Positions 35,441-42,452 of a stretch of DNA of 42,452 nucleotides are shown here, one piece after another. Each line of letters opens with the position of its first letter. Position 1 is the first letter of the stretch. The translations under genes and the position numbers were made by a program. Source of the stretch: Sphaerisporangium sp. (GTDB taxonomy: Bacteria > Actinomycetota > Actinomycetes > Streptosporangiales > Streptosporangiaceae); assembly GCA_025964675.1 (NCBI GenBank), contig JAOPYI010000166.1, positions 1 to 42,452 on the forward strand. The letters run 5' to 3'. Below the pieces are notes generated by a model. The model was given only the letters and a program-made list of their open reading frames with translations. It was not told the origin of the DNA and made no database searches.

Positions 35441-35872
35441 TCAGGCCTCCCTGGCCCTCAGGGTCGCCTTTACCTGCTTCAACGCGGAGACATAATCACG
35501 CAGATCAGGACGCATGGCGACAGCGATTGTCAAAGGCTCCTGAGCCGCCTCCATGTCGCCGGTGCGCCACAGCGCCATGCCCAGGCCGAAATAGGCGTAA
35601 TCCTCGGTGGGATTGGCCGCGACGATCCACCGGAAGCTGTCGGCCGCGTCTTCGTAGCGACGCGAGTTGAACTGCGCTCTGGCGAGAGTCTCCCGGATAC
35701 TGCGGGACTCCGGCTCGGCGTCGGCCGCCCGCGCCAGAATCGCCGCCGCGGCGGCCGGGCTGCCGTCCTTCAGCAGCTTGACACCTCTTTGAAACCACTC
35801 GTAGACATCACCCGTGGGAGCGCTGGGCTCGTAGTCGGGGGATTCAGACTGGCCGCTTCGTCCCTGCATCAT
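35441..35872 (-). CDS. tetratricopeptide-repeat protein
   Basis: A 143-aa soluble protein with three TPR-like helix pairs: WFQRGVKLLKDGSPAAAAAI, then ETLARAQFNSRRYEDAADSF, then YAYFGLGMALWRTGDMEAAQ, and a C-terminal capping helix. Such repeats bind protein partners; none is known here. The ATG at 35872 is chosen because AAGGAGG stands 10 nt upstream; a TTG at 35899 lacks a ribosome binding site. It probably shares a transcript with the HAD gene and is divergent from the DUF1015 gene. Confidence 0.85.
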   Translation of the reverse strand: MMQGRSGQSESPDYEPSAPTGDVYEWFQRGVKLLKDGSPAAAAAILARAADAEPESRSIRETLARAQFNSRRYEDAADSFRWIVAANPTEDYAYFGLGMALWRTGDMEAAQEPLTIAVAMRPDLRDYVSALKQVKATLRAREA

Positions 35873-35977
35873 CTTTCCGAGGCCTCCTTGAGACGACAAG
35901 TCATCCGGCTTCCTGTCGAGCCGGGCAACGCTACGACGTCGGGGCTGTCTCTGAGCGACTCAGGCGTTTATGGCACC

Positions 35978-37609: not shown

Positions 37610-37869
37610 CGGATGCCCTTCCTTCGATGGGAACGCGATCATTCTCCGAGGTGGGGCCGGTGACAGGCCGCGCCGAACGCCGTTCTGTGGACAGCGGAAC
37701 CACTTCCACGCCGGACACGCCGCACTCTCCGCGTACAAGACAGGTCTTGACCGGGTAAAAGCCGGTCGTCCCCGCCCGTAGAAGCCCGGGCCCGCGCCAT
37801 GAGCGGCGTAAAGGCATCACACCCGTGCCCTACGCTCGTGTGCGAACCCGGGAACCAAAGGAGTGGCCT

Positions 37870-38808
37870 GTGGACAACGTCACACCGCTCGGCGGCGACG
37901 TCTACGAGATCGACACGCGGATGGCCGGATACTCCGGGATCACGGCGGGATATCTGATCCTCGGCGACCGGCCGTGCCTCGTCGAGACGGGCACCTCCAC
38001 GTCCGCTCCCGTGGTCCGCGACGCCCTGACCTCTCTCGGAGTCGGCCCGGACGATCTGGCCACGGTGGTGGTCACGCACATCCACCTGGACCACGCCGGA
38101 GGCGTCGGCGACATCGCCGGCTACTATCCGTCCGCGGAGATCGTGGTGCACGAGAAGGGGGCCCGGCACCTCGCCGATCCCTCACGCCTCATGGCCAGCG
38201 CCCGCATGGTCTGGGGCGACAAGCTGGACAGCCTCTTCGGCTCCCTGGCGCCGACCGAGGTCGTTCGCATCCGGGCCCTCGGCGACGCCGGCTCGGTCGA
38301 CCTCGGCGGCGGACGCACGCTATCCAGCCACTACTCCCCCGGCCACGCCAAGCACCACGTCGGCCTCCTGGACTCGGCGACCGGGGACCTGTACGTGGGC
38401 GACGCCGCCGGGGTGTATCTCCCAGAAACGGGTGATCTGCGTCCCGCGACCCCGCCGCCCGACTTCGACCTCCAGACGGCTCTGGGCTCCCTGGCGCTGT
38501 TCGTGGCCCTCGGCCCCCAGCGGCTGCTCTTCAGCCACTACGGGCCCGTCCCCGACGTCACCACGACGCTGGAGCGTTCAGCCGAGGAGCTACGGGTATG
38601 GGTGGATCTCACCAGGCAGGCACATTCGGACGGCCTGGACCTCGACCACGCGGCGGCGATGGTGCGCGATAGGACGCGCGAGCGCTACACCGCGCTGACA
38701 TCCGGGGACGACGAGACGGCGCAGCGGTTCGAGCTGCTCAGCGGCGCGACGTCGAACGTGTCCGGCATCATGCATTGGCTTGACCACACCACGCCCAGCG
38801 CCAGGTAA
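37870..38808 (+). CDS. MBL-fold metallo-hydrolase
   Basis: A 312-aa metallo-beta-lactamase-fold enzyme. Metal ligands: VTHIHLDHAGG (His70, His72, Asp74, His75), HYSPGHAKHHVGLL, and YVGDAAGVYLPETGDLRP. The C-terminal helical part (about 230-312) is typical of the larger glyoxalase II/quorum-lactonase-like proteins. Substrate unknown. The GTG at 37870 has AAAGGAG 6 nt upstream; earlier frame from 37825 is less likely. A hairpin follows at 38878. Confidence 0.88.
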   Translation: MDNVTPLGGDVYEIDTRMAGYSGITAGYLILGDRPCLVETGTSTSAPVVRDALTSLGVGPDDLATVVVTHIHLDHAGGVGDIAGYYPSAEIVVHEKGARHLADPSRLMASARMVWGDKLDSLFGSLAPTEVVRIRALGDAGSVDLGGGRTLSSHYSPGHAKHHVGLLDSATGDLYVGDAAGVYLPETGDLRPATPPPDFDLQTALGSLALFVALGPQRLLFSHYGPVPDVTTTLERSAEELRVWVDLTRQAHSDGLDLDHAAAMVRDRTRERYTALTSGDDETAQRFELLSGATSNVSGIMHWLDHTTPSAR

Positions 38809-38938: not shown

Positions 38939-41900
38939 TCAGGCTTTACGATTGTCGGGCTGTTCGACCTCGACGTCATCGTCCTCGAGAACATCCCCAG
39001 GAATTCCGCCCGCCGAAACGCCGAAGTCCGGCTCGATGAACGCCGGGGCCATGCCGGGCTCCAGGCGCGTGGTCTTCAGTTCCGGCTTGGCGGTCGCCGC
39101 TGCGGGCGGGCCGTCGACAACCCGCCCCAGATCACCTTCGGAACGACCGGCCGGGTCGGCCTGAGGTTCGTCATCCTCCGTGGATCCCGCGATCGCCCCG
39201 TCAGGGACACCCGCCGGCTCCGGCTGGACGTCTGCGTCGAGGTCTTCGCCAGGACCGGCTTCATCCTTCTCGGCAGGCGTGCTCAGATCCGGTCCGGCTA
39301 CCGCGCCAGACTCCTCGGCGACCGGCCCGATCTCCGGCTCCTCACCGATCAGATCGAGTTCTCCGGCGTCGGATTCCTCGTCTGTCAGCGCGACGGTCGC
39401 CTCTGCGGCCGGCTCCACGTCGGCTTCGGGCTTCCCATCAGGCCGCCGCGCCTCGGCGGGCGCGACGTCGGTGTCGTCGTAGACATCCGCGAGGACGTCC
39501 CCGTCCTCGTCCCCGTCTTGCTCGTCTTCCTCGACGTCCTCGATGACCGAGCCGGTCAGCTCCGCGTAGCGCTCGGCCGCGTCCGTCTCGCCGCCCTCGT
39601 CGAACATCATCGCGCGTTCGAACCAGTCGGTCGCCGCGCCCTCGTGACCGGCCTCCGCCAGAGCGTCGGCGTAGGCGAAGGCCAGGCGGGCCGACCACGG
39701 ATGCGGCTCCTGGTTGCGCAGCTCCGGCACCCGCTGCAGCGTGATGACCGCCGCGTCGTGCTGACCGAGGTCACGGCGGGCCCCGGACTCGACGATGGCC
39801 AGCTCGATCCGCCCCGCGCGGTCGAGACGCTCGGCCTCCTTGGAGCGAACGAGGTCGAGCGCGCGCTCCGGGCGCCCGAGGCCACGCTCGCAATCGGCCA
39901 TGATCGGCAGGAACTCGTCCGACCCGGTCATCCTCCGCCCGGCACGCAGGTCGCTCAGGGCCTCGGCGTAGTTTCCCGCACGGTACGCGGCGAGGCCCAC
40001 GACCTCACGTACGACGCCGATGCGCGCGGCGAACCGCCGGGCCACCTTCGCGTGCTCGTAGGCGAGCGCGGCGTCATCGTCTCCGAGGGCGCGCTCGGCC
40101 GCCACCAGGTGGCAGGCGATCAAGTCCGCGAGGTCGTTCGGGAGCGAGCGCAGCTCGTCACGCACGTCCTTCTCGAGCTCTTCGGGCGTGATGTCCGCCG
40201 CCAGCTCAGGCAGCGCGGCGCGCTCCTCGCGGGGAGCGTGCTCAGTCTCGCGATCGAACGGGCGGCCACGCTCGTTGCCGTACCGGGCGCGGGTGCCCGC
40301 GCTGTCGGAGCGCGGCGCGTCGCCCCGCTGCTCCCGGGGACCGTCGCCTTCCCGGTGTCCGTACGGCCGGGCGTTGTCGCCGGCGGACGGACGGCTCTCA
40401 CGGGGACCACGGTCGTCGCGGGCCTCGCGGCTGAACGGACGCTGCGCGGAACTCCGGCGGTCATCCCGCTGGAACGGAGGACGGCCCCCACGGTCGTCAC
40501 GGTTGAATGAGCGACCACCGCGGTCGTCCCGGGGAGCCGGACGCCCCCCTGGTCCACCACGGTCGTCGCGGCCTTCACGGCTGAAGGGACGCGGGGCGGA
40601 GCTCCGGCGGTCATCCCGCTGGAACGGAGGACGACCTCCACGATCGTCACGATCGAAGGAACGCCCGCCACGGTCGCCGGAATCCGCAGGGCGCCCGCCA
40701 CGGTCCCCGGAATCCGCAGGACGCGCGGCACGGTCACCCGAGTCAAAGGAACGTCCACCGCGATCGTCACGATCGAAGGAACGCCCGCCACGGTCGCCGG
40801 AATCCGCAGGACGTCCGCCACGGTCGCCCGAGTCGGTGGGACGCCCGCCACGGTCGTCACGGTCACGCCAGCCGGAGGAACCCGCCGGACGGCCCTCACG
40901 CCGGTCGCCGTAACGGGACTCCGGACGGCCACCGCCACGATGAGGACGCTCGCCACCCGTCCCGTACGAGCCGCCACGGCCGCCGGAAGAACCGCGATCG
41001 TCACGGGCGCCGGGAGGACGGCCTTCGGCGGAACCGCCACGGTCGTCACGGCTGAACGAGCGACCACCTCGGTCGTCACGGTTGAACGGGCGGCGCGCAC
41101 CGGAGCCGCCACGATCGTCACCACCGAACGAACGGTCACCCGAGCCGCCCCGGTCGTCGCGGTACGGCGGACGGCTCTCGCGATCACCGCGATCGTCGCG
41201 GTTGTACGGACGCGGCGCCGCACCGCCGCGATCACCGCCGCCGCTGAACGAACGCGGGCCCGAGCCACGGCGGTCGTCCCGCTGGAAGGGACGGCCTCCA
41301 CGGTCGCCGGAGTCGGTGGGACGCCCGCCACGGTCGTCACGGTCACGCGAGCCAGAGGAACCCGCCGGTCCACTCTCACGCCGGTCCCCGTAGCGTGACT
41401 CCGGACGACCGGCGCCTCCATCACGATGAGGACGGTCACCACGCGGCGCGTACGAACCACGGTCACCGGGCGCGCGATCCCGGTCTCCGCGGTTGTAAGT
41501 AGGGCGCTCGCCGCCGGAACCGCCTCGGTCGTCGCGATTGAAGGGGCGGCTGGGACGGTCACTCCGATCATCGCGATCGAACGAGCGGGCCGGGCGATCG
41601 TTACGGTCGTCGCGATCGCTGGAACGGGCCGGGCGGTCGTCGCGATCGAAGGAACGGGCCGGGCGGTCACCGCGGTCGTCCCTGCCGGACGTGCGTCCGC
41701 CGGGGGGGCCTCCACGGGAATCACGGTCGGAGGGGCGGTCGCCGCCGCGGTTCTCGCGCTGGAACGGACGTCCTCCACGGGAATCACGGTCGCGGGACCC
41801 GTACGAGCCGGCGGGGCGGCCCTCGCGTCGCTCGCCATACCGCGGGCGGTCGCCGGGGCGTCCTTCTCCAGGGGCTCCCGCGCGATCTCCGGCAGCCGGC

Positions 41901-42016
41901 CGGCCGCCCTTGTCTCCCTCGGGGCGGTCACTGCGGAACCCTCCGGAACCCCCGTCCGAGCGCTGTCCAGCGTCTTCGGGACGGCCCGAGTCCTCACGTC
42001 CGTTATCTCTGTTCAC
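38939..42016 (-). CDS. TPR-like protein with giant RGG-like disordered N terminus
   Basis: A 1025-aa protein. Residues 1-601 are almost only R, D, G, S, P, with endless DRDDRGGR, RGGRPF and SGDRGGRP units: a charged, disordered, RGG-like region with internal long repeats. Residues about 602-824 form a helical, TPR-like domain (ITPEELEKDVRDELRSLPND, then AAYRAGNYAEALSDLRAGRR, then SARLAFAYADALAEAGHEGA). From about 825 a strongly acidic tail follows (VIEDVEEDEQDGDEDGD). Mycobacterial Rv1691 appears to be a much shorter relative (inference from the TPR part and locus). GTG at 42016 with AAAGGA upstream. The gene lies downstream of the rRNA operon, same strand. A role in RNA binding or condensate formation is inferred. 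Confidence 0.88.
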   Translation of the reverse strand: MNRDNGREDSGRPEDAGQRSDGGSGGFRSDRPEGDKGGRPAAGDRAGAPGEGRPGDRPRYGERREGRPAGSYGSRDRDSRGGRPFQRENRGGDRPSDRDSRGGPPGGRTSGRDDRGDRPARSFDRDDRPARSSDRDDRNDRPARSFDRDDRSDRPSRPFNRDDRGGSGGERPTYNRGDRDRAPGDRGSYAPRGDRPHRDGGAGRPESRYGDRRESGPAGSSGSRDRDDRGGRPTDSGDRGGRPFQRDDRRGSGPRSFSGGGDRGGAAPRPYNRDDRGDRESRPPYRDDRGGSGDRSFGGDDRGGSGARRPFNRDDRGGRSFSRDDRGGSAEGRPPGARDDRGSSGGRGGSYGTGGERPHRGGGRPESRYGDRREGRPAGSSGWRDRDDRGGRPTDSGDRGGRPADSGDRGGRSFDRDDRGGRSFDSGDRAARPADSGDRGGRPADSGDRGGRSFDRDDRGGRPPFQRDDRRSSAPRPFSREGRDDRGGPGGRPAPRDDRGGRSFNRDDRGGRPPFQRDDRRSSAQRPFSREARDDRGPRESRPSAGDNARPYGHREGDGPREQRGDAPRSDSAGTRARYGNERGRPFDRETEHAPREERAALPELAADITPEELEKDVRDELRSLPNDLADLIACHLVAAERALGDDDAALAYEHAKVARRFAARIGVVREVVGLAAYRAGNYAEALSDLRAGRRMTGSDEFLPIMADCERGLGRPERALDLVRSKEAERLDRAGRIELAIVESGARRDLGQHDAAVITLQRVPELRNQEPHPWSARLAFAYADALAEAGHEGAATDWFERAMMFDEGGETDAAERYAELTGSVIEDVEEDEQDGDEDGDVLADVYDDTDVAPAEARRPDGKPEADVEPAAEATVALTDEESDAGELDLIGEEPEIGPVAEESGAVAGPDLSTPAEKDEAGPGEDLDADVQPEPAGVPDGAIAGSTEDDEPQADPAGRSEGDLGRVVDGPPAAATAKPELKTTRLEPGMAPAFIEPDFGVSAGGIPGDVLEDDDVEVEQPDNRKA
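40641..40810 (-). repeat. 120-bp period repeat within the disordered region
   Basis: A 50-base block starting CGATCGTCACGATCGAAGGA occurs at 40641-40690 and again, base for base, at 40761-40810, 120 bases apart. It encodes RPADSGDRGGRSFDRDDRG-type residues. Such exact identity inside a diverged array suggests recent duplication or slippage. Confidence 0.85.
40831..41410 (-). repeat. 480-bp higher-order repeat within the disordered region
   Basis: The block starting AGTCGGTGGGACGCCCGCCA at 40831 recurs at 41311, 480 bases away, identical for 37 bases and similar for about 90. In protein terms, RYGDRRE-x-x-PAGS units start at residues 208 and 368, and a third, RYGERREGRPAGS, at residue 59. Confidence 0.8.
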
Positions 42017-42339
42017 TTCTGTCCTTTAGTTGCTCGCTCACCGCGTCCACCGTGATCCGCGTTCACCCATTGCGCCGACCATGTGCGGAGGGGACGGTCT
42101 ACCCGGCCGCGGGACACAGGCCCGTTCACTCTGTCGCTGCCCGCCCGTGGCGCCTTACGCGACGAAGGCCACCCGTGGTGGGGTGGCCCGGCACCTCCAG
42201 CCTAGCAAGGCCTCGAAGCCCACGGGACGCGCGCGGCGATAACGCGGGGCCTGGGCACATGCCTGGATGCTTCCCTCGAGAGGGGGCCGTGCTGGCGGAA
42301 GACGCTCGCGCCTGACCGCGAAAGGCCCCTATAACGCAG
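42017..42339. other. 323-base region between the 5S gene and the repeat-protein gene
   Basis: No gene recognised. It should hold the promoter of the repeat-protein gene on the minus strand, but no clear -35/-10 pair was found. It contains an 8-bp hairpin GGCCACCC (42167-42174) / GGGTGGCC (42181-42188) that could be a second terminator behind the rRNA operon. Confidence 0.45.
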
Positions 42340-42368
42340 AAAAGCCACCCAGAGCCTGGGTGGCTTTT
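42340..42368 (-). terminator. rRNA operon terminator
   Basis: AAAAGCCACCCAG (42340-42352) pairs perfectly with CTGGGTGGCTTTT (42356-42368) around AGC. On the minus strand it lies 26 bases after the 5S 3' end and is followed by T residues: a classic intrinsic terminator. Confidence 0.92.
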
Positions 42369-42393
42369 CCTGCATAACCATCATGCGAATGAT

Positions 42394-42452
42394 TGTCCGG
42401 CGGCGTCCTACTCTCCCACACCGTCCCCGGTGCAGTACCATCGGCGCTGGAA
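42394..42452 (-). rRNA. rrf: 5S ribosomal RNA, 3' half (runs off the window)
   Basis: On the minus strand the last 59 bases read as the 3' half of actinobacterial 5S rRNA: CCAGCGCCGATGGTACTGCA, then GGTGTGGGAGAGTAGGACGC, ending CGCCGGACA near 42394. The 5' half lies beyond the right edge. It is presumably the last gene of an rRNA operon on the minus strand. Confidence 0.93.

Follow-up and report, generated by a model that had tools for sequence, protein, structure and literature searches.

At the end of a 42,452-nucleotide stretch of Sphaerisporangium sp. DNA (GenBank assembly GCA_025964675.1, contig JAOPYI010000166.1, positions 1 to 42,452; the whole stretch is referred to below as the window), the minus strand carries the 3' part of a 5S ribosomal RNA (rRNA) gene and, behind it, the gene of a 1025-residue protein in which a tetratricopeptide repeat (TPR) core is flanked by a long arginine-rich N-terminal arm and an acidic C-tail. 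When comparing this locus with its relatives, we observed a phylum-wide linkage of the TPR gene to rRNA operons and an arm composition common across lineages, both of which are new here. The features at the locus are the following.

38939..42016, minus strand: gene of the arginine-tailed TPR protein, GTG start, stop at 38941..38939, 1025 amino acids (aa), supported by homologues
40211..42016, minus strand: N-terminal disordered polyampholyte arm, residues 1–602, R 24%, G 20%, D 16%, hardly any I, L, V or M
39548..40210, minus strand: TPR core, residues 603–823, from the alignment, an AlphaFold2 mean predicted local distance difference test score (pLDDT) of 96.8 and generic TPR matches
38942..39547, minus strand: acidic disordered C-tail, 202 aa, from its composition and a pLDDT of about 43–60
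39020..39046, minus strand: short conserved motif PAFIEPDFG in the C-tail, residues 991–999, pattern F[IV][EA]P[DNH][FY] in relatives
42021..42027, minus strand: ribosome-binding sequence AAAGGAC ahead of the GTG, read from the sequence
about 42334..42375, minus strand: terminator-like hairpin separating the 5S and the gene, z −5.3 for the 70-nt stretch 42325–42394
42395..42452, minus strand: 5S rRNA gene, 3' part only, cut at the window edge, 29.3 bits

An in-frame TAA lies three codons upstream of the start region, beyond AAAGGAC, and the N-terminus of the protein (MNRDNGRE) aligns with like starts in 15 relatives, in which N2, G6 and R7 are invariant. Because the upstream stop, the ribosome-binding sequence and the matching N-termini agree, the GTG start of the 1025-aa open reading frame (ORF) can be regarded as well placed. 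The distance from the 5S to the GTG is 378 nt, with the hairpin in between. The 5S part was found at a relaxed threshold, its 29.3 bits being below the Rfam gathering score of 38, and Rfam at gathering gave no match in the whole window; a mir-2057 match on the hairpin at the relaxed threshold was taken as chance. The hairpin was not listed by a stricter terminator scan, and a sigma-70 promoter scan upstream of the gene found none, a result that is uninformative for GC-rich hosts.

An earlier note on this DNA, made from the sequence alone, had pointed to the placement behind the 5S on the same strand. The comparison confirmed this placement and showed that it is a pattern across the phylum, as the gene lies behind a same-strand rRNA operon in 52 of the 59 loci L128–L186 and, additionally, the rRNA–gene pair spans the circle join in genome G161. 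Within the class, rRNA was found beside the gene in 38 of 40 loci (L128–L167), the misses being L133 and L147, the latter of which ends 346 nt upstream; 19 of these 40 loci come from genomes already in the set L100–L118. In that set, which covers ten families, a same-strand 5S was upstream in 19 of 19 loci, accompanied by a whole or partial 23S in 17 and a whole or partial 16S in 13. Outside the class, rRNA was beside the gene in 14 of 18 loci, with misses at L173, L175, L185 and L182 (the last at a contig end). A same-strand 5S was located at most 5.7 kb upstream of the core in 31 of 32 genomes with mapped 5S sites, the random-gene expectation for a 5S within 6 kb being 0.055 when shared ancestry is ignored. 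Among the four genomes with a single 5S, it is at the gene in G012, G145 and G184 and elsewhere in G082.

The gap between the 5S and the predicted start had a median of 115 nt and did not exceed 135 nt in 34 of 53 loci, the usual layout being the 5S, about 10 bases, a terminator-like hairpin, some tens of bases and the start. The predicted starts are rough, those of L138, L145, L156 and L180 beginning inside or at the hairpin and thus likely too early. Such short gaps leave scant space for a promoter; a promoter of the gene's own behind the hairpin is still conceivable, since in L154 and L155 the hairpin is followed by TACAAT and TATAAT. A comparison made to see whether the terminator at the linked operon is weakened had a mixed outcome across 14 genomes: the linked hairpin was the weaker one in G290, G188 and G202 and the stronger one in G018 and G094, and the other genomes showed equal or mixed strengths.

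The surroundings of the pair were also compared. Of the 40 loci with a 16S, 27 had a TyrS match upstream of it, a count affected by the short upstream stretch in several loci (in L174 the match is on the other strand). The rRNA together with at least one of HAD, TlyA, NADK and RecN was found in 37 of 59 loci. The rRNA–gene pair occurred without a detected downstream gene in 15 loci and the reverse in five. Among these five, L147 and L182 stop at the edge of their contigs, and the rRNA of L186 lies on the other side of the circle join; the detection of downstream genes was by tblastn inside the fetched stretch only. The ancestral order was likely tyrS – 16S-23S-5S – TPR gene – HAD phosphatase – tlyA – nadK – recN. 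In G026, the rRNA operon and the gene form a single duplicated block, the two copies of which share 99.2% identity over 6678 nt (L136 4219–10892; L137 on the reverse strand); both ORFs are intact, and the block ends about eight codons short of the stop of the L136 gene. G104, G228 and G279, which belong to the same genus as G026, have two core matches each.

The earlier note had regarded proteins of this type as rarely described in bacteria. This turned out not to be the case, as the protein is the long version of a common family: the window TPR core matched 270 of 296 genomes of the class at E ≤ 0.001, five of them with two matches, and gave one match in its own genome. A profile of the TPR core matched 157 of 396 phylum genomes, a count that includes the class, the weakest of these matches (near E 1e-4) possibly being other TPR proteins. 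The nearest named relatives were Sphaerisporangium species, with 87–94% identity in the core. Judged by these searches, the window gene is the Streptosporangiaceae form of a mostly single-copy, Actinomycetota-wide TPR family.

The architecture proposed in the earlier note, R/G/D-rich disorder joined to a TPR core and an acidic tail, was borne out by the composition of the parts and by the AlphaFold2 scores of core and tail. The core (221 aa) is predicted to form a solenoid of paired antiparallel helices, and 17 columns, including R63, R68, R89, R93 and R109, are invariant in the core alignment of 57 sequences. The Pfam TPR matches remained below gathering, the best being TPR_12 with 22.6 bits against 30.1 (26.0 for the C-terminal part alone), and NCBIfam gave no match for the whole 1025-aa protein. 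A PDB sequence search returned designed TPRs and weak MamA-type matches, and Foldseek and VIA-align found generic TPR folds only. Among TTC0263 (2pl2), MamA (3vtx) and consensus TPRs (8chy), no specific family stands out, as many unrelated TPR chains score similarly.

The arm of the window protein contains 146 R, 123 G, 94 D, 59 S and 56 P in 602 residues, with 0.3% I+L+V+M and 5.1% F+Y+W. Its likeness to eukaryotic RGG regions, put forward in the earlier note, holds for the motifs (23 RGG, 33 RG and 11 RDDRGG, clustered in the predicted disordered segment) and for the disorder-side composition. It does not hold for charge, nor for conservation of the repeats, which are lineage-specific, composition alone being retained. 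With a charged fraction of 0.44 and a net charge of merely +28, the arm is a near-neutral polyampholyte with RDDRGG-type repeats and not a strongly basic RGG domain. The disorder prediction suggested in that note was answered in part: the arm lies well inside the disordered side of the charge–hydropathy line, and the C-tail has the low pLDDT given above. No second match to the arm was found in its own genome, and a Pfam RDM3_C match on the arm (18.5 bits, cut-off 35) was taken as a composition match.

The arm and tail were then compared over 111 proteins (110 proteins minus 18 cut at an edge, plus 19 further loci), in which a few genomes are counted twice, e.g. L055/L153 and L136/L137; some arm lengths are overcalled (L031), and L132 is doubtful (arm 18 aa, C-tail 369 aa). 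The arm was net positive in 109 of the 111, with repeats that differ by lineage, and its composition was on the disorder side in 110 of 110 arms of at least 30 aa. The C-tail charge was zero or negative in 105, the exceptions (L169, L170, L172, L176, L177 and L185) having tails of 2–29 aa. Arm arginine exceeded that of the neighbouring genes in 46 of the 46 loci with sufficient background (58 listed). The arm of the low-GC locus L165 has 75/67/34% GC at codon positions 1/2/3 and R stays at 24%, and because R is retained at such a third-position GC, what is conserved appears to be the amino-acid and not the base composition. The homologue search with the TPR part, which the earlier note had recommended for following the N-terminal length, gave arms of about 35 to 765 aa over the family, and congeners differed in length. 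Arm and tail lengths were correlated (Spearman 0.74 over all proteins and 0.56 over 58 varied proteins, relatedness uncorrected).

The question raised in the earlier note, whether the long N-terminal region is maintained as protein, was addressed with the DNA of the arms. Mismatches between 17 pairs of relatives amounted to 531, 530 and 1796 at codon positions 1, 2 and 3 (blastn, not conditioned on protein), 22 of 22 alignments started in phase, and 116 of 205 gaps were multiples of three. Since the mismatches pile up on third positions, the alignments are in phase and the gaps favour multiples of three, the arm is, by these alignments, maintained and evolving as protein. The dN/dS values of 0.16–0.39 in arm blocks are biased low, the blocks having been picked for at least 50% identity. 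Among the 69 named loci L031–L099, the frame was open through an arm of 238–767 aa in 53, and the remaining 16 run off the contig edge and are uninformative. Many contigs of this set stop within about 2–3 kb upstream of the TPR core, and such contig ends would be a natural outcome of assembly breaks at the arm repeats or at the repeated rRNA operon.

The C-tail of the window protein has 62 acidic and 11 basic residues among its 202. The pattern F[IV][EA]P[DNH][FY] was found in 64 of the 66 non-Streptomyces loci of L031–L099, which are of the Streptosporangiaceae type; of the other loci scanned, L153 and the window alone had it. Kept within an otherwise fast-changing acidic tail, PAFIEPDFG is likely a partner-binding peptide. 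Docking of this motif onto the TPR core gave no confident placement (motif pLDDT about 60).

Six loci of the f4 group, mycobacterial by inference, link the family to Rv1691 of Mycobacterium tuberculosis and MSMEG_3754 of M. smegmatis. Their cores are 44–48% identical to the window core; the arm is 42–52 aa in four of the six and the C-tail 0–1 aa, whereas the window protein has 602 and 202 aa, respectively. The part of PMC3072309 that concerns this region gives the M. tuberculosis order as lprJ, Rv1691, Rv1692, Rv1693, tlyA, ppnK, recN, the same as the order TPR–HAD–TlyA–NADK–RecN in the family loci. The family gene also lies behind a tyrS-linked rRNA operon, and in mycobacteria with two operons rrnB comes after tyrS, according to passages of PMC10218544. 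The window gene would thus belong to the Rv1691/MSMEG_3754 family, an assignment made by gene order. This family is so far known just as an uncharacterised TPR protein of the lprJ–recN operon, and our literature search, for which most subscription journals and all preprints were outside reach, returned no account of the gene's function, rRNA linkage or arm composition.

There are some experimental hints from M. smegmatis. Knockout of rrnB slowed growth, in passages of PMC12838053 that are silent on the TPR gene. MSMEG_3754 was present in an RNA polymerase beta pull-down, the design of which, as described in excerpts of PMC7092591, was to catch nucleic-acid neighbours in general; when FLAG-tagged MSMEG_3754 was cross-linked, no DNA was recovered, and the authors noted that the amount was maybe too small to see. 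The protein also appears in a ClpC1 interactome table, as far as the relevant part of PMC10433963 goes.

Our tentative reading, which we rate slightly below an even chance, is that the protein binds RNA and serves as a TPR scaffold in rRNA synthesis or the assembly of ribosomes. We infer that it binds RNA, has a partner, is coupled to rRNA transcription, perhaps by co-transcription, and condenses. The disordered arginine-rich arm would touch nascent or precursor rRNA weakly at many points and possibly cause several molecules to coalesce, and a protein partner, perhaps at RNA polymerase or an assembly factor, would dock on the TPR core. In proteins that have an acidic tail, the tail may compete with RNA for the arm or hold a partner. 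The place behind the 5S would tie the supply of the protein, in amount or location, to transcription of that operon, the protein being produced beside the rRNA either by read-through or from a promoter fitted in after the hairpin. A more specific version is doubtful: that of a dedicated scaffold of rRNA transcription and ribosome-assembly sites which works on a principle like that of nucleolin, whose gene is the last cistron behind the rRNA operon and which is supplied by read-through, with lineages growing and shrinking the arginine-rich and acidic arms together.

Several observations weigh against the scaffold. A Pfam scan at E ≤ 1 found no folded RNA-binding domain such as an RNA recognition motif (RRM), the TPR core carries a net negative charge (median −12 in the 111 proteins), the arms of L172 and L176 have a net charge of zero or below, lysine is depleted in the arm in just 30 of 46 loci, and most of the f4 arms are very short, as noted above. 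The gene is not universal, since it was not found when 20 of the 26 unmatched class genomes were re-tested by protein and profile, two of the 20 (G125 and G155) being single-contig. At the f4 locus L133 (G082) there is no rRNA at the site and the TPR gene is kept with its downstream block; L175 likewise has the gene without rRNA, no rRNA was found within 17 kb in L173 and L185, and 2.4–4.9 kb separate rRNA and gene in five loci (L139, L149 and L157–L159). The hairpins after linked 5S copies were not systematically weaker than those after other copies (14 linked and 25 other, in 14 genomes). The pull-down list comprises 275 proteins, bystanders included, by the portion of PMC7092591 concerned, and the frequent presence of downstream genes beside the pair (37 of 59 loci) would be compatible with passive inheritance.

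The last point leads to the main rival, which we consider possible, though on the unlikely side, namely that tyrS–rrn–TPR–HAD–tlyA–nadK–recN is an old, slowly rearranging block and the TPR protein a general adaptor without a special tie to rRNA. The retained protein-coding neighbours on both sides, the persistence of the gene without rRNA in L133 and L175 and the ordinary look of the hairpins would all be expected of such passive synteny. We nevertheless favour a functional link, because loci with the pair but no detected downstream gene outnumber those of the reverse kind by 15 to 5 (three of the 5 being edge effects), the short gap recurs in distant lineages, and operon and gene were duplicated jointly in G026. 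It is also possible, though improbable in our judgement, that the protein is a transcription-side factor, a partner of RNA polymerase or the nucleoid that binds DNA or the elongating polymerase rather than rRNA. Its recovery with the polymerase beta subunit would fit this, but that pull-down catches nucleic-acid neighbours generally and no DNA came with the cross-linked tagged protein, though the amount was maybe too small (passages of PMC7092591).

Two further explanations concern the arm itself. The wide range of arm lengths, the lineage-specific repeats and the differences between congeners could mean that the arm is mostly neutral low-complexity growth by repeat slippage and that only the TPR core works. 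We find this very improbable in view of the third-position substitutions, the multiple-of-three gaps, the arginine enrichment, the disorder-side composition of all arms tested, the arginine-rich arm of the low-GC locus and, with the low bias noted above, the dN/dS values. That the long N-terminus is an untranslated artefact with the true start internal is scarcely credible: high-GC DNA does leave several frames open, with long ORFs on both strands, but the ribosome-binding sequence with the upstream in-frame stop, the like N-termini in relatives and the third-position pattern along the arm all speak against it.

Nucleolin and other eukaryotic nucleolar GAR/RGG proteins combine an arginine/glycine-rich disordered segment with an acidic stretch and have a tie to rRNA genes. 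The window protein resembles nucleolin in these three respects; it differs in that no RRM was found, the arm has many aspartates and a TPR core is present instead, and no homology is claimed. The E. coli model of RNA polymerase condensates, or a bacterial nucleolus, is similar in its clustered rRNA transcription with protein-driven condensates; in the passages concerned, it differs in that no scaffold encoded beside an rRNA operon is described (PMC10450203). It is unusual that a protein gene is kept directly behind an rRNA operon over many families and sampled lineages outside the class, and the protein has the composition of RNA-condensing proteins, yet its function is undescribed in the literature found. 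The protein is a testable candidate for the way in which rRNA synthesis or the assembly of ribosomes is organised in actinobacteria, and bears on whether bacteria have dedicated nucleolus-like scaffolds; if the reading is true, a read-through scaffold would be made at the place and time of rRNA synthesis.

Downstream of the TPR gene, the window carries a metallo-beta-lactamase-like gene on the opposite strand (37825–38808), as do L148–L153. A few genes downstream of the TPR gene there is a second TPR protein of 152 aa (35441–35899), which lies next to the HAD phosphatase and matches TPR_16 above gathering; tblastn matches to it were found at a similar place in L153, L157, L158, L161 and L166.

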